Of a stretch of DNA of 64,000 bases, positions 1 to 9,012 are shown in pieces. Below the pieces are notes generated by a model. That model was not told the origin of the DNA and did not search any database. It saw nothing but the letters and a program-made list of their open reading frames with translations. A program made the position numbers and the translations under genes. The stretch comes from Fluviicola chungangensis (GTDB lineage Bacteria > Bacteroidota > Bacteroidia > Flavobacteriales_D > Crocinitomicaceae). The DNA is taken from contig NZ_VLPL01000011.1 in NCBI RefSeq assembly GCF_007558725.1, positions 1-64,000 of the forward strand, read 5' to 3'. Every line of letters starts with the position of its first letter. Position 1 is the stretch's first letter.

Positions 1-65
1 TTACCGGCTTCGTATTCCTTTAAAATACTTACAATCTGAGCCTCTGTAAATCTCGATTTTTTCAT
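1..65 (-). CDS. IS3-family transposase OrfA, N-terminal fragment
   Basis: Only the first 21 codons are visible; they start at the ATG at 65-63 and read MKKSRFTEAQIVSILKEYEA and on. This is the characteristic beginning of the HTH_Tnp_1 helix-turn-helix protein of IS3-family elements (MKKSRF-TE-QI--IL-E-EAG). In this family OrfA binds the terminal repeats and is fused to the DDE integrase OrfB by programmed frameshifting. It is truncated only by the edge of the window, so nothing can be said about activity. Confidence 0.8.
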   Translation of the reverse strand, partial: MKKSRFTEAQIVSILKEYEAG

Positions 66-122
66 AATTCTGACAATTTAAATCTATATTTTTAAACTGT
101 CTGATTTTTAGGGAAGTTTACA
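1..122 (-). mobile_element. End of an IS3-family insertion sequence, cut by the window edge
   Basis: The first 65 bases encode, on the minus strand, the start of an IS3-family OrfA. Upstream of it the minus strand begins TGTAAACTTCCC (complement of 111-122), which looks like the terminal inverted repeat of such an element. The rest of the element, including OrfB and the second terminal repeat, lies outside the window. The outer boundary is a guess because the other end and the target duplication cannot be seen. Confidence 0.7.
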
Positions 123-171
123 GCCCAACTCTAGCTAGATAGTTATGTTTTTATTATACCGTTTTTTTTAG

Positions 172-218
172 AATTAAAAATTAGTAGCCAATTTGTAGGT
201 GGCAACTAATTTTTAATT
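172..218. repeat. AT-rich inverted repeat
   Basis: Arms at 172-190 and 200-218 are complementary over 19 bases with one mismatch, around a 9-base loop. It is AT-rich at the base and could be a bidirectional terminator or a relic of an inserted element. No gene ends immediately next to it, so its role is unclear. Confidence 0.5.
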
Positions 219-242
219 AACCTCTTTTTGGGGAATTTTCGG

Positions 243-290
243 AATAAAATGCTAGCTGCCCACGTAGAGGTGGGCAGCTAGCATTTTATT
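243..290. terminator. Perfect 21-bp stem palindrome, probable bidirectional terminator
   Basis: Bases 243-263 and 270-290 are perfect reverse complements (core GCTAGCTGCCCAC) with a 6-base loop GTAGAG. A GC-rich top with an AT-rich base is typical of an intrinsic terminator working both ways. It lies between the insertion sequence and the folE operon. The tip (TGCCCAC/GTGGGCA) resembles the terminator at 3396-3432. Confidence 0.6.
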
Positions 291-385
291 GTGTTTGTGA
301 ACTCTTGCGGGGAAACTTCTGACTTTTTGATAGAAGATTTGGAGCGTGTCTCACAACTAGAAACGTTAGACAATTTGCAATAATG

Positions 386-425
386 GAAAAGGAGGTTTAA
401 TCAAATGATTTCACCTCCCTTTTTG
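386..425. terminator. Terminator downstream of folE
   Basis: A hairpin pairs AAAAGGAGGT (387-396) with the ACCTCCCTTTTT segment starting near 413. On the minus strand it sits about 20 bases after the folE stop codon and is followed by a T-run, so it should end the minus-strand pterin operon. Confidence 0.65.
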
Positions 426-445
426 TATGTAACTCAAAACTATTA

Positions 446-1138
446 TCAAGATGTTATGTATCTCATAAACTCTTCTTTTCTTGTAGGATCAAGGAACTCA
501 CCCGAATATTCAGCAGTTATAGTACTACTGGAAATATCCTTGACACCACGCGAAGAAACGCACAAATGAGTTGCATCAATTACCACAGCCACACTTTCCG
601 TTTTCAAGATCATTTTTAGTTCGTTTGCTATTTGTATAGTCAAACGCTCCTGTACCTGTGGTCTTTGCGAAAAATACTGTACAATCCTGTTTAGTTTGGA
701 TAATCCAATCACTTTTCCCGAAGAAATATAACCAATATGCGCTTTTCCAATAATTGGAACAAAGTGGTGTTCACAGTTAGAATACAGAACGATATTCTTT
801 TCCACTAGCATTTGACTGTATTCGTACTTATTTTCAAAAAGTGCAATAGTTGGTTTATTGGAAGGATTCAGTCCGCTAAAAATCTCTTTGACATACATTT
901 TCGCTACCCGCGAAGGTGTTCCATTCAAACTGTCGTCCTTCAGATCAAGACCAAGTGTGAGCATTATTTCCCTGAAATGCTCGGAAATGATAGCAATTTT
1001 CTCTGTATCGCTTAAATCAAACGCATCGGGTCGTATCGGTGTTTCAAGAGATGTTCCGATATGATTTTCTCCTAGTTCGTCTTTAAGAAGAATAGTATCA
1101 TTCTCCGCTGTACTCGACGTAGTTCCGTTCTGTTTCAT
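446..1138 (-). CDS. folE: GTP cyclohydrolase I
   Basis: This enzyme turns GTP into 7,8-dihydroneopterin triphosphate, the first step of both folate and tetrahydrobiopterin synthesis. The 230-residue length fits the family. The zinc ligands are visible as C122 and H125 in NCEHHFVP and C193 in HLCVSSRGV; the conserved substrate loop GLSKLNRIVQYFSQRPQVQE follows at about 145-164. The first 40 residues are a poorly conserved extension. The start overlaps the end of the upstream pterin synthase gene by 41 bases, so the two are probably translationally coupled. Being in an operon with an animal-type pyruvoyltetrahydropterin synthase suggests a dedicated biopterin rather than folate role; that is inference. 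Confidence 0.95.
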   Translation of the reverse strand: MKQNGTTSSTAENDTILLKDELGENHIGTSLETPIRPDAFDLSDTEKIAIISEHFREIMLTLGLDLKDDSLNGTPSRVAKMYVKEIFSGLNPSNKPTIALFENKYEYSQMLVEKNIVLYSNCEHHFVPIIGKAHIGYISSGKVIGLSKLNRIVQYFSQRPQVQERLTIQIANELKMILKTESVAVVIDATHLCVSSRGVKDISSSTITAEYSGEFLDPTRKEEFMRYITS

Positions 1139-1508
1139 ATAATATGATTGTTAACTTTTTATCCGTTTCTATTCGCCGTTGAAGGATTTCATAAATAACT
1201 GCTGCAATATGCTCAACGGTCGGATTCAGTTTCGAGAATGCTTTTGTGTCCAGATTGAGATTTTTGTGATCAAATTGTTCAATGACATCCTTTTCAACCC
1301 AATCTTTCAGGATTTTTGTGTCTATTACATATCCTGTTTCAAGGTTGACTTCTCCTGTTATTTTCACGATCAATTCATAATTGTGTCCGTGATAATTTGG
1401 GTTGTTACACTTCCCGAAAACCTCCTTGTTCTTTTCATCTGACCATTGCTCATTATGCAGCCGATGCGCTGAATTAAAATGAAACTTTCGAAATATTGCG
1501 GCTCTCAT
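1098..1508 (-). CDS. 6-pyruvoyltetrahydropterin synthase (animal-type, CX5HGH)
   Basis: A 136-residue member of the PTPS/QueD family. Zinc ligands H15, H40 and H42 are visible (SAHRLH and YHGHNY). The catalytic cysteine is C34 in GKCNNPNYHGHNY: the spacing is C-x5-HGH, as in animal PTPS, not the C-x3-HGH of QueD. The DHKNLN motif near residue 80 and the ETERNYVEY glutamate near the end are also animal-like. It should convert dihydroneopterin triphosphate to 6-pyruvoyltetrahydropterin. It overlaps the upstream flavoprotein gene by 4 bases (ATGA) and folE downstream by 41. A sepiapterin-reductase-type SDR, needed to finish biopterin, is not in this operon. QueD function is the main alternative. 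Confidence 0.85.
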   Translation of the reverse strand: MRAAIFRKFHFNSAHRLHNEQWSDEKNKEVFGKCNNPNYHGHNYELIVKITGEVNLETGYVIDTKILKDWVEKDVIEQFDHKNLNLDTKAFSKLNPTVEHIAAVIYEILQRRIETDKKLTIILYETERNYVEYSGE

Positions 1509-2167
1509 TGTTCAATAACAATCAGGGAATCAGGCACTCCCAAGTCTTTCAAATTACTAACAATGTCACTCGTAAACTGATCTGGTCCGCAGATATAATA
1601 ATAGGATGCCAAATCTATATAATCACTCAACAGTTGTCTGTCAATTCGTTTTCCAGATATTGAACCCGAAGGATTGGAAATGATGTCAAGATAATGTTCT
1701 CCCAATAGATCGTTCAACTCTTGATGTAACACAATATCTTCTGTTGTTTTATTTCCAAATAACAAAGTATTACCTGAAAGTTTATCCTCTTCTTTAAGTT
1801 GCCTCAGAATAGCAATGAACGGAGTAATTCCAGCACCACCTGCAATAAAGACACCCGATCCTTTGTAACCGATTGTGCCGAATACTTCATGAAGAATCAA
1901 TTCATCACCAATCTTCACATTCTCCAGTTTTTCAGTTATCCCATCATGTCCCTTATAAATTTTGATGATGAATTCAAGGTAATCGACTGTATTAAGACAA
2001 GTGAATGTGAATGGTCTTAATTCAGTTTCCAAACCAATTGAATTGATAGCCAAATCAGTTGCCTGCCCAGGAATAAAATAATACTCTGCTGGCTTTTCTA
2101 CACGGAAACGTTTTACATTATGAGTAACGAAATCCGCAGCTAGAATTTTTACGATGTGTTTCTCCAT
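1505..2167 (-). CDS. FNR-type flavodoxin/ferredoxin reductase-like flavoprotein
   Basis: A 220-residue oxidoreductase with the two-domain ferredoxin-NADP reductase fold. The FAD-binding RPFTFT motif lies at residues 51-56, the pyridine-nucleotide glycine loop GVFIAGGAGITPF at 105-117, and the YYYICGPDQF cofactor motif near 188. No cysteine cluster for an iron-sulfur centre is seen, so it is a bare FNR module that would need a separate electron acceptor. Its start shares one base with the stop of the DoxX-like gene (TAATG) and its stop overlaps the pterin synthase start. A role in reducing a pterin or a membrane partner is possible but is not shown by the sequence. Confidence 0.85.
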   Translation of the reverse strand: MEKHIVKILAADFVTHNVKRFRVEKPAEYYFIPGQATDLAINSIGLETELRPFTFTCLNTVDYLEFIIKIYKGHDGITEKLENVKIGDELILHEVFGTIGYKGSGVFIAGGAGITPFIAILRQLKEEDKLSGNTLLFGNKTTEDIVLHQELNDLLGEHYLDIISNPSGSISGKRIDRQLLSDYIDLASYYYICGPDQFTSDIVSNLKDLGVPDSLIVIEQ

Positions 2168-2559
2168 TATTTGCCAGTTTTAATTTCAGGGATAGAAGAA
2201 AGACGTGCAAGTGAAAAAGCACCTATTGCCATTGCAATATCTCTCACTGCTACATCAATGAATTGACCACCAGGAAGTAATGTCAGTGCTATAAGAACTA
2301 ACCATGCCCCCACAACAATAGCACCTTTCTGGGGTTTTATCAAAACAAGTATTCCTGCAATGATCTCAATAACCCCGACAATTATCATGAAGGTTTTTCC
2401 GCTAAAAGGCAATATTCCTTCCAAAGATGGATTCAGGTACTTTTGCCAGTCTGTTAGTAAATTTGTGAATTTGTCAAGTCCTGCAACAATGGGGATCAGG
2501 CCGTAGCTGAATTTTAATACTGTCTGAACTTGTTTAACTGTCTTAATTGTAGTTTCCAT
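2167..2559 (-). CDS. DoxX-like small membrane protein
   Basis: A 130-residue protein with four predicted membrane segments (around residues 12-30, 58-77, 82-100 and 105-120) and the general look of the DoxX/MauE family. Members are often coupled to quinol or thiol redox reactions. It is the first gene of the minus-strand operon with the FNR-like flavoprotein, the pterin synthase and folE, and its start is 24 bases from a predicted ECF-type -10 element. The pairing of a DoxX-like protein with an FNR flavoprotein hints at a membrane redox step; its substrate is unknown. Confidence 0.75.
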   Translation of the reverse strand: METTIKTVKQVQTVLKFSYGLIPIVAGLDKFTNLLTDWQKYLNPSLEGILPFSGKTFMIIVGVIEIIAGILVLIKPQKGAIVVGAWLVLIALTLLPGGQFIDVAVRDIAMAIGAFSLARLSSIPEIKTGK

Positions 2560-2583
2560 GAATTTTTGATTTATGTTTATTGG

Positions 2584-2617
2584 TTAGAGATAACCTGAGC
2601 GGGAAACGTTACAAAAT
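2584..2617 (-). promoter_or_regulatory. Predicted ECF sigma promoter for the pterin operon
   Basis: On the minus strand the sequence ATTTTGTAACGTTT (2617-2604) is followed, 14 bases later, by CTCTAA (2589-2584). The same two boxes at the same spacing occur on the plus strand facing the sigma-factor gene. The layout GTAACGT-N17-TCTAA resembles known ECF/RpoE promoters (GGAACTT-N16/17-TCTAA or TCTGA). The -10 box is 24 bases from the DoxX-like start codon. Confidence 0.65.
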
Positions 2618-2643
2618 TTATTTCATCCTATTTTGTAACGTTT
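2604..2643. repeat. Perfect inverted repeat between the two divergent promoters
   Basis: Arms AAACGTTACAAAAT (2604-2617) and its exact reverse complement (2630-2643) are separated by 12 bases. The repeat is explained by two outward-facing copies of the same -35 region. It could alternatively, or in addition, be a dimeric operator, for instance for a MerR-type regulator. Confidence 0.85.
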
Positions 2644-2663
2644 TTAAAGCTGTAATACTCTAA
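2630..2663 (+). promoter_or_regulatory. Predicted ECF sigma promoter, autoregulatory
   Basis: ATTTTGTAACGTTT at 2630-2643 is followed 14 bases later by CTCTAA at 2658-2663, exactly as on the opposite strand. The sigma-factor ATG is 21 bases beyond the -10 box. The most economical reading is that the ECF sigma factor recognises both promoters, activating itself and the pterin operon together. Confidence 0.65.
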
Positions 2664-2684
2664 TTGATATAATAATTTGCTTCA

Positions 2685-3371
2685 ATGAACTCAATAAGAC
2701 CGATAGATTACGAATTACTAAAAGATGAAGAAATCATTGATTTGATTTTAAATGGAGAAACGACATTGTACGAACTACTGATTCGCAAATTCAATCTCCG
2801 TCTTTATCGAATAAGTATGTCGATTGTTAATGATGATATGGAGGCTGAAGATGTGATGCAAACGGCTTATATCAATGCTTACCTGCAACTGGCAAACTTT
2901 CAGAACAAATCCAGTTTCGGAACATGGTTGACGCGAATTGTAATCAATGAAAGTCTGCTCTATAAGAAAAAACAAGCAAAGCGTGAACAATTGATAATCA
3001 ACAGTTCGGAAAAAGATCATCAGACAGAGAACAATCCATTAAAAGAACTTATGAATCAGGAATTGAAAACACTATTGGAAAAGGCGGTTTCCGATTTGCC
3101 AGAAAAGTACAGGCTTGTATTTGTAATGCGGGAAGTTGAAGAATTGAGTACACAGGAAACAATGGATATTCTTCAATTGAGCGAATCGAATGTAAAGGTC
3201 CGTTTGAACCGTGCTAAGGAAATGTTGCGTAATGATTTGAGTACCTATTATAAATCAGAACAAGTGTTCGCTTTCGATCTTGTCCGATGTGATCGAATTG
3301 TGAACTTTGTCATGAGCAAGATTGCCGATTATCATGGCAAAAAAAATCCGGGAATGCGCGGAACAATTTAA
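2685..3371 (+). CDS. ECF-type RNA polymerase sigma factor
   Basis: A 228-residue sigma-70 family protein. Region 2 spans about residues 27-95 (LYRISMSIVNDDMEAEDVMQ, then FGTWLTRIVINESL) and region 4 about 135-190 (LPEKYRLVFVMREVEELSTQ, then SESNVKVRLNRAKEML). Region 3 is missing, as in ECF factors. A C-terminal tail of about 40 residues carries VFAFDLVRCDRIVNFVMSKI, an RCDR-type motif found in some ECF groups, with a single cysteine that could be regulatory. No anti-sigma gene is adjacent. It is transcribed away from the pterin operon, and both sides have the same promoter boxes, which suggests it controls both. The inducing signal is not visible. Confidence 0.9.
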   Translation: MNSIRPIDYELLKDEEIIDLILNGETTLYELLIRKFNLRLYRISMSIVNDDMEAEDVMQTAYINAYLQLANFQNKSSFGTWLTRIVINESLLYKKKQAKREQLIINSSEKDHQTENNPLKELMNQELKTLLEKAVSDLPEKYRLVFVMREVEELSTQETMDILQLSESNVKVRLNRAKEMLRNDLSTYYKSEQVFAFDLVRCDRIVNFVMSKIADYHGKKNPGMRGTI

Positions 3372-3395
3372 AAATCTAAGATTCAATAAATAATG

Positions 3396-3432
3396 ACTGC
3401 CCATCATTTGGTGGGCAGTTATCTTTTTTTTT
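3396..3432 (+). terminator. Terminator of the sigma-factor gene
   Basis: ACTGCCCA (3396-3403) pairs with TGGGCAGT (3412-3419) and is followed by a T-rich run. It starts about 25 bases after the sigma-factor stop codon. Confidence 0.8.
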
Positions 3433-3607
3433 GTATTCGTGACCTTTTAAGGATTCAAATGTTAAAAGTTAGAAAAAGTTGGTTTTTTGGAGTACCCCAA
3501 ACTTTTTTTATTTTTCTGTTCTTTCATATCCTTGTGCTAAACGGTTCAAATCAAGTGGAAACCGTTTAATTAAAAAAAGGAAATCAACTAATAAAACACC
3601 TTTAATC

Positions 3608-3940
3608 ATGGAAACAGTGGTTAAACTCGCCATCGAAAGAATGAGTGAGGAAATTGAACGATTAAAACAAACCGTTAAAGATCAGCAGAAGCAGATTTCG
3701 GAACTGGAAAGAAACAAAAATCGAAACACAGTTGTTGAACCTGAAACACCTAAAATCGAAGATGAATTGCTCAACAACGAGCAAGTGAAAAGCATCTTAA
3801 AAATTGGTAAAAACTCCTTAATCAAATTAGTTCGTGAGGGTGTTCTTGTTGCTATTCGGATCAATGAACGAAGCGTTCGTTTTTCCCGTAGTGCAATCAT
3901 GGAATACATTCGCCGAAAACAAGGAGCAAGCACATTTTAA
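3608..3940 (+). CDS. Helix-turn-helix (excisionase-like) DNA-binding protein
   Basis: I start it at the ATG at 3608 (110 residues), because the upstream in-frame sequence has low-complexity, non-protein-like composition. Residues 1-38 form a charged coiled coil (METVVKLAIERMSEEIERLK and on). The C-terminal half, from about residue 52, is a MerR/excisionase-like winged helix (LLNNEQVKSILKIGKNSLIK, then EGVLVAIRINERSVRFSRSA) of the HTH_17 type common next to integrases in Bacteroidota. It runs towards the integrase gene and shares a terminator with it. It probably serves as recombination directionality factor or module regulator; that is inference. Confidence 0.75.
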   Translation: METVVKLAIERMSEEIERLKQTVKDQQKQISELERNKNRNTVVEPETPKIEDELLNNEQVKSILKIGKNSLIKLVREGVLVAIRINERSVRFSRSAIMEYIRRKQGASTF

Positions 3941-3947
3941 CTAATGC

Positions 3948-3978
3948 AAAAAGCGACCCCGATACGAGGTCGCTTTTT
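3948..3978. terminator. Bidirectional terminator between HTH gene and integrase
   Basis: AAAAAGCGACC (3948-3958) pairs perfectly with GGTCGCTTTTT (3968-3978). A-run and T-run flank the stem, so it can end both converging transcripts. Confidence 0.9.
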
Positions 3979-3996
3979 CTTATTTTTAATGAGCGA

Positions 3997-5331
3997 TTAA
4001 ACCAATTTAATTGGGAAATCATCCAGTTTATCTTCCGTATAGATTCGGAGTATCTTCACAAGCAACGCTGCATTATCGATTAACGAGATTTTATTGTACT
4101 TAAAAATCTCACTACTACCCAATCCTTTAAAATCCGATTCAATAGCTGAATTGGTGTGTCCAGTAATTTTGCTTAGTACAGTTATCGGAATGTAACTCAT
4201 TAGATTCGTAACAAACGATCTTCGTCCGATATGTGAACTAATCAATTGAAACAGCTTTTTGGTTGTTAGTTCTTTCTTTCCAAAAGAGTTCGTATGAGAG
4301 AGGGTGATTTCTTCCTTTAATCCAACGCTTTCAGCAATATCGCGTGCAAGTGAGTTGAACTTTTGCATCGCCATAGGTTCAGCAGTTCCCCCATTAGCAT
4401 CAAATGCTTCCTGTAATGGTTTTAAAATTGGTACAACGATCTCTGTATCGGTTTTCGTTGTTAAATAACGTGCGTAATGAAACGTTACGTTGTTTTTCGA
4501 ATACGTGTATTCGGGTTTGATTTTATGAACGTCGGAATATCTGCATCCAGTAAAAAGAAGCGTGAGAAGAATGAGTTTTGCATTTGCTAAATCCTTCGTT
4601 TCGGGTTCATAAGCAATGATCTTTTCGATCTGTGCAAATTCGAGGTAAATTTTCTCTTCCGTAACCGATCTTAGCTTGTCCGTGGATCGAAGTTCTCTAG
4701 TTGGGTTGAACACATTCACTTTATACTTTCTTGCAATTCTATTCAATACTGCTTTGAATGCTTTGTAGTAATGTGTAACAGCATTAATCCGTGTACAACG
4801 TTCACGGATTGTATTCATGAAACTAACGTAAAGTTCTTCATTCAAATCACTACTATACAATTGCTTTCCGATTTTAGTTTCAAAATCAGTTAATCGATTC
4901 GATAGCACTTTGTAGCAGTTTTTTGTACCCTGTTTAATTCCATGCTCTTGCAGGATTTCATTTTCAATGAAATCAACTAATCGAACACGAGTTACAATTG
5001 CTTGATCCTCTTTCTTCTTGATCTTAACATCTAACTCTTGTTTCAAACGTTCGGGGGTTACAGTTTCCGTTGTGATCAGATAATTGAATATATCCGTTGC
5101 TTGTTTTTCGATTTGAAGAAGCGTTGCTCGCTTAGATTTATCCGTTGGAAGTTTTTCTATTTCATTCCAATCAGATTTCTTAACTTTAATTCCAGTATAG
5201 TAGCGAAGTGGTTTATACACATAAGTTTGTTTCAACGCATCGAACTCTTTGTACCCGAAGTTCATTATAGCTAATACAGGAATTTCTCCGTGAACTCCCG
5301 TTTTTAGTATGAAATTGATCTTTAATTTCAT
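3997..5331 (-). CDS. Tyrosine-recombinase-family integrase with Phe at the nucleophile position
   Basis: A 444-residue phage-integrase-family protein with the Bacteroidota arrangement: N-terminal arm-binding domain (1-100), SAM-like core-binding domain (about 115-215) and catalytic domain (about 225-430). Catalytic residues R264 (TGCRYSD), H367 and R370 (HIGRRSF) and H392 (ITGHTNS) are present. Nine residues after H392, where the nucleophilic tyrosine normally sits, the codon is TTT (F401, ESDFKGL) rather than a tyrosine codon. A tyrosine occurs further on (FKYN) and could in principle act, but the spacing is unusual. It converges with the HTH gene. It may be an inactive remnant or a protein with altered chemistry. 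Confidence 0.85.
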   Translation of the reverse strand: MKLKINFILKTGVHGEIPVLAIMNFGYKEFDALKQTYVYKPLRYYTGIKVKKSDWNEIEKLPTDKSKRATLLQIEKQATDIFNYLITTETVTPERLKQELDVKIKKKEDQAIVTRVRLVDFIENEILQEHGIKQGTKNCYKVLSNRLTDFETKIGKQLYSSDLNEELYVSFMNTIRERCTRINAVTHYYKAFKAVLNRIARKYKVNVFNPTRELRSTDKLRSVTEEKIYLEFAQIEKIIAYEPETKDLANAKLILLTLLFTGCRYSDVHKIKPEYTYSKNNVTFHYARYLTTKTDTEIVVPILKPLQEAFDANGGTAEPMAMQKFNSLARDIAESVGLKEEITLSHTNSFGKKELTTKKLFQLISSHIGRRSFVTNLMSYIPITVLSKITGHTNSAIESDFKGLGSSEIFKYNKISLIDNAALLVKILRIYTEDKLDDFPIKLV

Positions 5332-5657
5332 GGTGATTCATTTAATTGGTTGATTCAAACGTATAAGTAATAACTCACAGTTTGGGTACTAAAAAGGGTA
5401 GGAATATTGAGCTTCTGACCCGTAATTCCCCTATAATCCTGCTAGTTCCTTTATGTATAACGAAATCGCTGAATCCTTTATTGTAATTAGGATACAGGGA
5501 TTCTAAAGGATTTTAAAGATTTTGGTTTTAGTTCCTATGTGTTTACACGATTCAAAAGCGAGTGCGGTAGCCGAGCTAAAAATTGCGCATTTGCGGTAAA
5601 AATTAAGTCTGGGTGTCAATTGTGATTAATTCGCGATTAATCGCGTACCCACGGATT
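5332..5657. other. Gene-free region upstream of the integrase
   Basis: No gene is supported. The stretch contains GTTTGGGTACT (5380-5390), an inverted near-copy of a sequence on the other side of the integrase module, and a perfect palindrome CGCGATTAATCGCG at 5632-5645. The remainder is AT-rich and shows no further structure that I recognise. Confidence 0.5.
5632..5645. repeat. Short palindrome CGCGATTAATCGCG
   Basis: A perfect 14-base palindrome just after the end of the CotH-like gene. GCGATT(A/C)ATCGC cores recur at 12692-12705 and 62015-62030, always between genes, so this may be a dispersed palindromic element or part of a weak terminator. Confidence 0.5.
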
Positions 5658-7715
5658 TTAATTTTTCATCACTTTGATCCGGCTGATTGAAGTTCCTTCC
5701 TGGATTTCCACCCAATAAATCCCGCTGCTTAATGGGCTTGAAAATTGATTGAGTTTCACTTCGTTCATTCCATAAGCAGGTGATTTTTCCACAGAACCGA
5801 TTTTACGTCCGTTCAAGTCGAATAATTTGATTTGTGTGTTGCTCATTCCGGTTGAGAACCAGGATATATGAAGTTCTTCATTGAACGGATTCGGATAAAC
5901 GCTTAAGGAAGCAATTTCCTCTTCTACCAGTCCGAGGTGACATGTCCCCTGGATATGGTTATCAATCCACGTTGCACGATCCAATATCCATTGCTTGAAT
6001 GCGGCAATTTCGCCGGGATAATCTGCCGGGATCGGACTTGGATTTGGCCAGGTGTAAATTCCCAAAAGCGGCCATTGTTCAAAATGACGGTCTTTTGCCT
6101 GGTCGATGTACTGCGCAATGGAATCGATTTTAGCATAAAGTGAGTCGTTGGAAAGGAACGTCTGGCGCAGGGTAGTCCAGCGGCATTTTAATTCATCCTG
6201 GAACCAGGGATCTTCCAGCATACGCGCCCACCAGGTTGGTGGTTGCCATCCGCCGGGACATGTGTTTGAAAAATCGTACTGCCAGCCTGTGTAATCGTTT
6301 CCGGCACAATAATCTGCATTCCACCATGCCAGGTTGAAGTCCCACATCGGTCCCATTCGCAATTTCCCGCCTTTGGAATCCTTTTCTTTATGAAAGAATG
6401 TACTTAAACGATATCCGTCCACATTTTTGCTGATCTCGTTCAAAATGAAGAAATCGATGAATGTTTCCGGAACGCTGTATTTTCTGTAACCGGTATTCGG
6501 GTTTGCAAAAGAAGGGCTTGCAAGAGCTGTTTCGAACGAATCGACATATGCCTGGATGTAGTCTTTTTGCTGCGGTTCAATGATGTCTGATTTAGGATAA
6601 TGGTATAAGAAATTAATATCCGAATTATCTGCTGCTTGGTAATTGGATGTCCATCCATCATTATTTGATCCTGTAACTTTGTCAATTTTAATGATATATC
6701 CACCCGTCAGATCATCACCCACAATATCAGTCGGAAGTAATTTCGCAATATCCACCCTGTTCGGATCGCGTTTTATTTTTTCCATCAGGGTGTAGATTCC
6801 CTGGTATTGCCCGTTTAAGACCAACTCACACAGAATGGTGCGCGAAGCATAATGCTGCATTTTGTTTGCCAATTCATAAGTGAGAATATTGCGCATACAG
6901 CTCTTATCGTTGTAAGGAGCGTATAAGATCCAGTCATGCTCGGCCGGTAAACCCAATAAAACAGTATCTTTTTGTGTTCCGTTTATATCGCGTGTTTCAA
7001 AACCATAGGATTTTTGCGGAAAGGTTCCCGACGTGGAGCCTCTGCGCTCAATCCCGATTTTGTTGTTGTAAGCATTCGGAAAGTCGGTAACATAATTGAT
7101 GTTGCCCGGTCCGTGATCAATCATTTTCATTTGTGCCTCGATTTTGGGCTCGTCAGGAATGCCCTGATTGTTGGTGTTCAGAATAACAATGGGTAAATTG
7201 CTGCTTACAAAAGGTTGGTAAGTTGCCGGATTGTTTCCAAAGGTGATCGACCACGAATCCAGGGTTCCTTCATCTCCGCTTGCTGAATCGTAAATGCGTA
7301 ATTTCCAGGTTCCGTTCGGATTCTGATTGTTGTTTGCAACTCCAAGTGGATTCATGGGTTTAAAGATGCCGCTGAATGGCGCGCTTCCGCTAACAATGGA
7401 AATACTTGCATCTCCTCTGAAACAGGTTCCGTCGAAATCGTCATCGCTTCCTCCGATAGCTGAGAAGAGCATGATTTGAGTTCCGTCGGGAGCTTCAAGT
7501 GTTGCACTTACGTCTGCATCCCAGGTGTGTGTGATGGATAAGCAGACTTGTTCTAGTCCAAAAGTCGTTTGGTTAATGGTTGAAGGTAATCCACTGACAT
7601 TCAATGATTTTACCAATTCCTGGTTGTCCTGGATGTTTCCGGACGTTCCGTTAAAAGTTTGGCCAAAGGAAAACACACTTGAGACAAACGCAAGAGAGGA
7701 GAGTATAGTTTTCAT
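5658..7715 (-). CDS. Secreted CotH-kinase-like protein with P-domain and T9SS sorting domain
   Basis: A 685-residue secreted protein. Residues 1-19 are a signal peptide. About 40-160 resembles a proprotein-convertase P-domain beta sandwich (ITHTWDADVSATLEAPDGTQ, then NGTWKLRIYDSASGDEGTLD). About 170-520 is a CotH domain: AEHDWILYAPYNDKSCMRN, YQGIYTLMEKIKRD and the metal-site motif MGPMWDFNLAWWN. The last 75 residues form a T9SS type A sorting domain (SVYPNPFNEELHISW, then GIYWVEIQEG). CotH proteins are atypical protein kinases in spore coats; here the domain is exported to the surface or medium. Its substrate is unknown. A 49-base gap separates it from the transporter gene upstream. Confidence 0.88.
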   Translation of the reverse strand: MKTILSSLAFVSSVFSFGQTFNGTSGNIQDNQELVKSLNVSGLPSTINQTTFGLEQVCLSITHTWDADVSATLEAPDGTQIMLFSAIGGSDDDFDGTCFRGDASISIVSGSAPFSGIFKPMNPLGVANNNQNPNGTWKLRIYDSASGDEGTLDSWSITFGNNPATYQPFVSSNLPIVILNTNNQGIPDEPKIEAQMKMIDHGPGNINYVTDFPNAYNNKIGIERRGSTSGTFPQKSYGFETRDINGTQKDTVLLGLPAEHDWILYAPYNDKSCMRNILTYELANKMQHYASRTILCELVLNGQYQGIYTLMEKIKRDPNRVDIAKLLPTDIVGDDLTGGYIIKIDKVTGSNNDGWTSNYQAADNSDINFLYHYPKSDIIEPQQKDYIQAYVDSFETALASPSFANPNTGYRKYSVPETFIDFFILNEISKNVDGYRLSTFFHKEKDSKGGKLRMGPMWDFNLAWWNADYCAGNDYTGWQYDFSNTCPGGWQPPTWWARMLEDPWFQDELKCRWTTLRQTFLSNDSLYAKIDSIAQYIDQAKDRHFEQWPLLGIYTWPNPSPIPADYPGEIAAFKQWILDRATWIDNHIQGTCHLGLVEEEIASLSVYPNPFNEELHISWFSTGMSNTQIKLFDLNGRKIGSVEKSPAYGMNEVKLNQFSSPLSSGIYWVEIQEGTSISRIKVMKN

Positions 7716-7764
7716 TCAATGTTATTGAAACATTAAATTACGATTAAATCTTTTTAGTAAATGA

Positions 7765-9012
7765 TTAGTGTGAAATTTCTGACAATTCTGTCGGATTGTG
7801 TTTATGTTTGAATAAAACAGCAAACAGTACTGCTACCACTAAAGAATAAGTTGCAAAGACACTCCAGGCTCCCGACCAGTTTGTTTGACCATCCGGTAAA
7901 ATAAAGTGTTTGTCAATCACCCAGCTGCTTGCAATGGTCCCAAAATAGGCACCGAAACCGTTGGTCATCATCATAAACAATCCCTGAGCACTGGAGCGGA
8001 TAGAATGGTCCGTATTTGTTTCAATAAACATGGATCCGGAAATATTGAAAAAATCAAAAGCCATTCCGTAAACGATATTGGACAGAATGATTAGTATCCA
8101 CCCTGCCGACGTATCTCCCAAAGCGAAGAAACCATATCGAATGACCCATGCCATCATTGCCATCATCATGACCTGTTTGATTCCGAAACGTTTAAGGAAA
8201 AACGGAATGGTAAGAATGAACAATGTTTCTGAAATTTGGGAGATGGATAAAATGACCCCGGAATAATCTCCAATAACGGATCCTTTCGGGAAACTGAACA
8301 GGTAAGACTCTCCATACATGTTGGATAGCTGTAATGCTGCTCCAAGCAACATGGAGAAAAGGAAGAACAGGGCCATTTTGTAATTGGCAAACAGTTTAAA
8401 AGCGTCCAGTCCAAGCAGGTTGATCAGTCCTTTTTTTTCCGAGTGAAGGTTTTCGGGTGTACAAGCGGGTAGGGTGAAGGAATAGATTCCGAGTAAAATT
8501 GCTCCGATCCCGGCAAATACAAACTGATTGGCGGTGATGTTACTTCCTGTCAGATTAGTAACCCACATGGCAACAATGAATCCGACAGTTCCCCAAACAC
8601 GAATCGGGGGAAAGGTTTTTAATACATTGAACTCATTGGAAGTCAATACCCGGTAAGAAATAGAATTTGCAAGGGAAATAGTCGGCATATAGCAGATCAT
8701 TGCAGCAAAAATGACGTAAAACAATTGATCGGGATTGTCGACGAACGGAACAAAGAACAAAATACCTCCGTAAGCCAGGTGGAGCAGCCCGTATAACCGT
8801 TCGGCCCGAATCCATTTGTCGGCTATAATTCCTGTGAGTGAAGGCATTAAAATGGAGGAAAGCGCCAATGTAGAGAAAATAGCCCCTACTTCCTGGTAAG
8901 ACCAATGTTTTCCTTTTGTCCCGTAAGTGAAAATTGTTGTAAGCCAAGCTCCCCAAACGAAAAATTGGAGAAAACTCATGATGGTCAATCGGAATTTGAT
9001 GGATTTCCCCAT
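7765..9012 (-). CDS. Nucleoside:H+ symporter-type MFS transporter
   Basis: A 415-residue protein with about twelve hydrophobic segments, starting MGKSIKFRLTIMSFLQFFVW and continuing with GAWLTTIFTY. This opening and the GIIADKWIRAERL loop after the second helix match the NupG/XapB nucleoside permease family of the major facilitator superfamily. It should import nucleosides by proton symport across the inner membrane. It follows the bifunctional-nuclease gene by 21 bases on the same strand, so the two may be cotranscribed. Substrate choice within nucleosides cannot be judged from the sequence. Confidence 0.85.
   Translation of the reverse strand: MGKSIKFRLTIMSFLQFFVWGAWLTTIFTYGTKGKHWSYQEVGAIFSTLALSSILMPSLTGIIADKWIRAERLYGLLHLAYGGILFFVPFVDNPDQLFYVIFAAMICYMPTISLANSISYRVLTSNEFNVLKTFPPIRVWGTVGFIVAMWVTNLTGSNITANQFVFAGIGAILLGIYSFTLPACTPENLHSEKKGLINLLGLDAFKLFANYKMALFFLFSMLLGAALQLSNMYGESYLFSFPKGSVIGDYSGVILSISQISETLFILTIPFFLKRFGIKQVMMMAMMAWVIRYGFFALGDTSAGWILIILSNIVYGMAFDFFNISGSMFIETNTDHSIRSSAQGLFMMMTNGFGAYFGTIASSWVIDKHFILPDGQTNWSGAWSVFATYSLVVAVLFAVLFKHKHNPTELSEISH

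Follow-up and report, generated by a model that had tools for sequence, protein, structure and literature searches.

The sigma-F factor of Caulobacter is placed in group 16 of the extracytoplasmic function (ECF) sigma factors, and the promoter consensus of E. coli sigma-E combines an AAC-type -35 element with a TC-type -10 element. The promoter reported for Caulobacter sigma-F reads GTAACC-N16-CGAA, and this sigma factor has a negative regulator and a regulon that includes a DoxX-family gene (PMC3511200); for ECF group 16, with EcfF of Bradyrhizobium, the promoter reads tGTAACc-N16-CGAA (PMC3420878). Haemophilus RpoE2 and Neisseria SigE (group 13) are further ECF factors that control a DoxX-like gene together with an oxidative envelope response (PMC7907618). 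Both the GTAACC type of -35 element and the control of a DoxX gene by an ECF factor are already known from the Proteobacteria. Here we describe a pair of elements of this general kind at positions 2584-2663 in the first 64,000 nucleotides of contig NZ_VLPL01000011.1 of Fluviicola chungangensis (the whole of this stretch is called the window). They lie between a gene for an ECF sigma factor (ecf, 2685-3371, plus strand) and a leftward operon that encodes a DoxX-like membrane protein, an FNR-like oxidoreductase, a 6-pyruvoyl-tetrahydropterin synthase (PTPS) and a GTP cyclohydrolase I (folE). Sequence comparisons indicate that this sigma factor very probably drives both its own gene and the doxX operon from two divergent ECF promoters.

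The window resembles the Caulobacter and Bradyrhizobium systems in its GTAACC-like -35 element, and differs from them in that their -10 element, CGAA, lies 2-3 bases closer to the -35 element and that, in the consulted portions of the two reports, no pterin genes are named for them (PMC3511200, PMC3420878). Caulobacter sigma-F also has its negative regulator (PMC3511200), whereas none is recognized at the window locus. Judged by promoter rather than by protein profile, the window's sigma factor agrees with group 16 at the -35 element and falls outside it by the TCTAA -10 element at a longer spacing. E. coli sigma-E and P. aeruginosa AlgU are its closest solved relatives by sequence and by fold and have an autoregulated ECF promoter, as is predicted here; the differences are the lack of a recognized adjoining anti-sigma gene, a -35 element of GTAAC, the pterin targets and a C-terminal extension of some 40 residues. 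Haemophilus RpoE2, unlike the window's factor, has a 67-aa anti-sigma factor, HrsE, and targets msrAB and DUF clusters, with GTP cyclohydrolase unmentioned in the consulted part of the report (PMC7907618). Within the same phylum, ECF-type promoters have been mapped in Flavobacterium psychrophilum SM6; these have another -10 element, and the main text of that report, as far as it was consulted, contains no word starting GTAAC or TGTAAC (PMC9723704). Among the matches listed in a literature search that lay mostly outside subscription papers, no description was found of an ECF-pterin regulon like this one, nor any paper to support a link to light or proteorhodopsin, which was also considered. The locus offers a concrete, testable ECF regulon in the Bacteroidota in which a promoter word, a candidate sigma factor and targets come together. 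It also connects the second GTP cyclohydrolase copy with a sigma factor, and hence perhaps with a reduced pterin that is produced when needed and not for folate.

The paired element and its conservation

The preliminary description of this DNA reported two perfect, outward-facing copies of a 14-base sequence, each with CTCTAA 14 bases further on, and this was confirmed by direct reading and by a repeat search of the window. The arms, AAACGTTACAAAAT at 2604-2617 and ATTTTGTAACGTTT at 2630-2643, are complementary over all 14 nt (100%) with 12 nt between them; TTAGAG, the complement of CTCTAA, occupies 2584-2589 and CTCTAA itself 2658-2663, with the same 14 bases from box to box on either side. 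In the predicted promoter of the doxX operon, on the minus strand, the -35 region is ATTTTGTAACGTTT at 2604-2617, with TTGTAAC as its conserved core, and the -10 element is CTCTAA at 2584-2589, where most relatives have a TC(T/C/A)AA-like box. The predicted promoter of the sigma gene, on the plus strand, has the same -35 region at 2630-2643 and its -10 element at 2658-2663, ahead of the start codon at 2685. The exact 14-mer is found in the window at these two places only, and GTAACGT-N17-TCTAA without mismatch at this one site in the 64 kb. Degenerate matches to the 14-mer are uninformative because they are no commoner than expected (16 observed in the window at up to 3 mismatches vs 19.0 expected). 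By itself the word is neither rarer nor commoner than chance, but its placement as a pair, and the conservation of that placement, exceed chance.

Conservation was examined through relatives of the DoxX-like protein, which are sporadic (family, 8 of 120 genomes; phylum, 15 of 395; own genome counted in each). The comparison covers 24 loci, consisting of the window, four named contigs and 19 of 20 further stretches; a locus near-identical to the window's block (G080/L020/L047) and a weak match (G031/L019, E 3.6e-4) were set aside. TTGTAAC-N18/19-TCTAA was sought in the 150 bases upstream of each gene, with open reading frames (ORFs) of at least 120 aa from the same stretches as background, a set of 207 in which co-directional ecf genes were kept. 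An ECF gene adjoins doxX in 22 of the 24 loci, divergently in 18 and co-directionally in 4. With up to two mismatches, the element precedes 22 of 24 doxX genes and 17 of 18 divergent ecf genes (39 of 42 together), compared with 5 of 207 other upstream regions, and the exact element precedes 20 of 42 against 0 of 207. Nearly all the divergent ecf genes would thereby possess a promoter of their own with the AAC-type -35 and characteristic -10 element expected of autoregulation. Three of the five background matches themselves resemble further targets: a DUF4142 gene (L060), a gene after ecf (L048) and a GTATC-type site (L052). Among the 42 best matches, TTGTAAC is separated from TCTAA by 18 bases in 31 cases and by 19 in the other 11, to which both of the window's belong. 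Upstream of seven distant ECF genes, no region has fewer than two mismatches and one has two.

These relatives also refine the word. The proposed motif, GTAACGT-N17-TCTAA, holds as a promoter form but needs correcting at GTAACG: the loci usually read TTGTAACC, and G seldom follows GTAAC, as it does in the window, its near relative and the doxX promoter of L060. The perfect 14-base mirror likewise proved not to be a general feature, the common part being TGTAAC plus a few flanking bases. In one genome, G060, both promoters have GTATC as the -35 word, and so does a third site of that locus. The GTATC word also occurs in the F. chungangensis genome (4 times) and in G004 (3 times, with no DoxX match). 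Co-variation of the sigma factor with GTATC was considered as evidence and dropped, as it proves little when the word occurs elsewhere too; no single region 4 residue explains GTATC when the alignment is read by eye.

Could the similarity of the elements reflect recent transfer of one DNA block rather than selection on promoters? A 3148-bp block of the window is 98.2% identical to one in G080 that stands in unlike surroundings, and conservation between these two is uninformative for that reason. In the other aligned loci, however, protein identity to the window is 35-68%, and TTGTAAC and the TC box have been retained between spacer bases that have changed, which contradicts transfer as the explanation and leaves it extremely improbable.

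Another alternative is that a dimeric repressor or activator binds the inverted repeat as a single operator, with the TCTAA boxes coincidental. The perfection of the window's 14-nt inverted arms would suit an operator, as would the 8 of 18 divergent loci in which the arms are only 6-8 bases apart. All 18 divergent loci have two opposed, outward-facing TGTA(A/T)C arms, but the gap between them varies from 6 to 32 bases (a computed gap of 4 at L062 was a miscount from a nearby GTATC, and is about 10 by eye). Moreover, the five non-divergent loci with the TGTAAC word (L049, L050, L057, L058 and L061) each make do with a single arm, with no opposed one within 260 bases upstream of doxX, and the downstream TC box is kept at 18-19 bases. 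Neither a fixed arm spacing nor a pair whatever the gene order was thus found. An operator needs a pair at a set spacing and a promoter needs one element per transcript, and the variation in gap and the lone elements therefore led us to reject the dimer operator, which is very unlikely. This geometry, in which each direction has its own element and two are present only at divergent genes, is a clean natural control for promoter versus operator. The earlier proposal of two divergent ECF promoters, one serving the sigma gene and the other the DoxX/FNR/PTPS/folE operon, is strengthened by the presence of the element before both genes across the phylum, by its single or double occurrence according to gene order, and by its placement before pterin genes on other contigs in two genomes that carry the module.

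The sigma factor and the DoxX-like protein

The sigma factor (228 aa) matches only the Pfam domains Sigma70_r2 and Sigma70_r4_2/r4; regions 1 and 3 are absent, which identifies it as an ECF (group IV) factor. It scores above the cut-off of TIGR02937 (sigma70-ECF) and, with 211.5 bits against a curated cut-off of 204, belongs to the NF008888/PRK11922 family. AlgU, E. coli sigma-E and SigW are its closest matches by profile and by Foldseek, and AlphaFold models regions 2 and 4 well, the linker and the ends poorly. The cysteine of its C-terminal extension (C202) is invariant in all 21 aligned ECF sequences, which represent the 22 ecf genes except that of L055. No anti-sigma gene was recognized beside the window's ecf gene, such a neighbor being usual for ECF factors and not universal; the neighbors at the other loci were scanned in part.

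Most likely, a signal frees or activates this sigma factor, whose holoenzyme would act on the doxX-ecf intergenic region, with its back-to-back -35 elements (TTGTAAC), spacers of 18-19 bases and -10 elements (TCTAA). Transcription would start a few bases past each CTCTAA, at about 2668-2672 rightward and about 2575-2579 leftward. In this way the sigma factor would raise its own expression and activate the overlapping doxX-FNR-PTPS-folE operon. The extra GTP cyclohydrolase, PTPS and flavin oxidoreductase could then raise the level of reduced pterin, or a precursor of it, along with the membrane protein; the occasion is probably redox or envelope stress. As a guess from geometry, the placement of the -35 elements back to back could also cause competition for polymerase between the promoters.

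The DoxX label of the small membrane protein (2167-2559, minus strand, 130 aa), encoded by the first gene of the operon, is weak because it derives from sub-threshold Pfam scores and a weak fold match. Its score for DoxX (PF07681) is 15.2 bits against a gathering score of 23.6 (E 0.034), and its match to MauE (E 0.0027) is also below cut-off; 10 of 11 scanned relatives match Pfam DoxX at E values up to 1, the best at 1.9e-05. The model is helical (pLDDT 88), and its best Foldseek match, NACHO/TMEM35A (E 0.17, TM 0.65), is insignificant and suggestive only. Across the phylum, the sigma factor and this DoxX-like protein are the constant partners; pterin genes join them in part of the genomes, sometimes on another contig with the same promoter. 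A DoxX-like gene is the near-constant companion of the sigma gene (22 of 24 loci, a set obtained largely by searching with the DoxX-like protein itself). It is co-regulated with the sigma gene in the predicted scheme, no anti-sigma gene is recognized beside the window's sigma gene, and the sigma factor has its invariant cysteine. These features raise the idea that the DoxX-like protein is the partner or sensor of the sigma factor in place of an anti-sigma factor. The two would form a redox switch, serving in this genome the reduced-pterin pool and movable between Bacteroidota as one block, an idea that we regard as doubtful.

Further targets and the pterin genes

A tighter word, TGTAACCTTTN{13,16}TCNAA, taken from the doxX/ecf promoters, was compared between 19 genomes with the module and 19 without it (G080 and G282 belonging to neither set). 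It gave 18 matches in carriers and 4 in non-carriers, with 13 in each group for the reversed control. Eight of the carrier matches are the doxX/ecf promoters themselves, assigned by place, and three of the four in non-carriers fall inside ORFs; when the doxX/ecf promoters and sites within ORFs are removed, 9 matches remain in carriers and 1 in non-carriers. In the F. chungangensis genome, whose own word is GTAACG, the tight word has no match. The targets on other contigs with family support are a folE-FNR pair (G501) and DUF4142-cupredoxin genes (G501, G509). A run of FNR (frame-broken), SDR and FolB/HPPK genes on another contig of G013 is a further target, and a third DUF4142 gene, in G438, has an element with 2 mismatches about 2.7 kb from doxX. 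Families were checked for the pterin, SDR, DUF4142 and cupredoxin genes, and the remaining targets were named by eye. Across the 24 stretches, folE is present in 7, FNR in 6 and either in 9, and PTPS is confined to the window. The suggested link to a pterin operon is therefore supported by the window and by the targets on other contigs in part of the carriers, and is not a constant feature.

Several observations weigh against control of both genes, and of pterin genes, by this sigma factor. Three target regions fit the element poorly: doxX of L058 (3 mismatches), doxX of L066 (4) and ecf of L021 (3), and L066 has neither the motif nor an ECF gene. As to the sample, the near duplicates L054 and L055 were both counted, the range of spacings was chosen after the first relatives had been seen, and starts were shifted by hand for L050, L058, L062, L063 and L065, not all onto a start codon, so that distances are approximate. 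No folE, PTPS or FNR homolog was seen in 15 of the 24 stretches, although two of these genomes (G501 and G013) carry genes of this kind, together with the element, at other places. The rest of the ten non-local tight-word sites lie at a surface-protein gene (G013), inside an ORF (G399), at a hypothetical gene (G096) and at three small membrane-protein genes (G200, G471). Searches of the whole 4.27-Mb genome for TTGTAACN{18,19}TCTAA gave 5 matches and 5 in the reversed control, the looser TTGTAACN{17,21}CTAA gave 11 and 30, and a third pattern gave 33 and 26; none of the three stands out above its control. Finally, a different ECF/anti-sigma pair in G200 (L100, contig C115; named by eye) has TTGTAACC...TCTAA upstream, and the word is thus not private to the sigma factor studied here. 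A small membrane-protein gene near that pair carries a similar element, and a like gene in G471 has two elements in tandem.

Such findings bear on whether the promoters are read mainly by another ECF factor, the adjacent ecf gene being merely a target. GTAACC-type -35 elements are common to other ECF factors, which could read or share these promoters, and at L050 the promoter is present with no ECF gene within its 12-kb stretch. Yet promoter and this type of ECF factor occur together in 22 of the 24 loci (L058 with its 3 mismatches), the tight word is commoner in carriers both overall and outside the module and ORFs, and the sole well-fitting intergenic site elsewhere in the own genome marks another regulator. 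Control mainly by another ECF factor consequently seems distinctly unlikely, and the adjacent sigma factor is preferred as the regulator.

That intergenic site is the third exact copy of the 14-mer in the genome, an unrelated site at position 152580 of contig C14. At 152580-152609 (L010), it reads ATTTTGTAACGTTTC...TTCTAAA and lies about 240 bases before a gene for a LytTR-type response regulator (named by eye). Two members of the genus without the module, G010 and G088 (no DoxX match), have like sites, and it is on this ground that the site is assigned to another regulator. Of the 33 matches to the third pattern, 30 were inspected, and 22 of these are inside ORFs of at least 70 codons. The other eight comprise the pair of promoters described above, the C14 site and L105, L114, L118, L130 and L133; among the last five, L133 (C16:204906, 91 bases before an ORF) is the sole loose candidate. 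The genome-wide search that had been recommended for finding more targets thus yielded, with three patterns and 30 of 33 matches of the third inspected, no further convincing target in the own genome.

Neighboring genes and mobility of the module

The four genes of the leftward operon overlap end to end. Behind doxX, on the minus strand, follow the FNR-like FAD/NAD(P) oxidoreductase (1505-2167, 220 aa; Pfam NAD_binding_1 1.5e-11, FAD_binding_6 4.3e-06), the PTPS or QueD-type protein (1098-1508; Pfam PTPS 1.6e-32) and GTP cyclohydrolase I (folE, 446-1138; Pfam 7.8e-61). This folE is the second copy in the genome; the other lies apart from the module on contig C17 (position 159955). A second folE is present in 5 of 7 carriers examined, and three non-carriers have one each. 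Phenylalanine hydroxylase was considered as a required consumer of pterin and rejected, because among the genomes tested 3 of the 7 carriers and 1 of the 3 non-carriers have PF00351. On the other side, a hairpin (ACTGCCCA/TGGGCAGT) followed by a T run at 3396-3419 (plus strand, read by eye) is a likely terminator of the sigma gene. Further right come an excisionase-like gene and a tyrosine recombinase gene, the Phage_integrase score of the recombinase being just below the cut-off. An Rfam scan of window positions 1-9000 gave no match at gathering score.

The block shared with G080 spans 298-3445 (blastn against stretches of 10.7-12 kb, edges read), and its counterpart on contig C21 of that genome is L020 2614-5759, with no match outside the module in the compared stretch. 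The module moved as one piece and looks like a mobile cassette.

Several repeats lie near its edges. Just left of the module, at window positions 243-290, two perfectly matching 21-nt arms form an inverted repeat around a 6-nt loop (AATAAAATGCTAGCTGCCCAC). At 297-383 (plus strand) lies a small ORF of 28 codons (VNSCGETSDFLIEDLERVSQLETLDNLQ), part of a dispersed repeat of about 75-90 nt that is represented by 25 matches in the genus (7 of 9 genomes). In G080 the module stands between two copies of this repeat in the same orientation; the right edge of the window's block ends in GTGACCT, the first letters of the repeat in its usual form, and is followed by the excisionase and recombinase genes. 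The nearest ORF after a repeat copy points towards that copy in 18 of 19 loci read (overlapping loci counted apart), and several of these ORFs are metal-resistance-like or hemerythrin-like by eye. Among 20 distinct copies, non-majority letters fall 47/23/120 on codon positions 1/2/3, a distribution which suggests that the dispersed repeat encodes a translated peptide.
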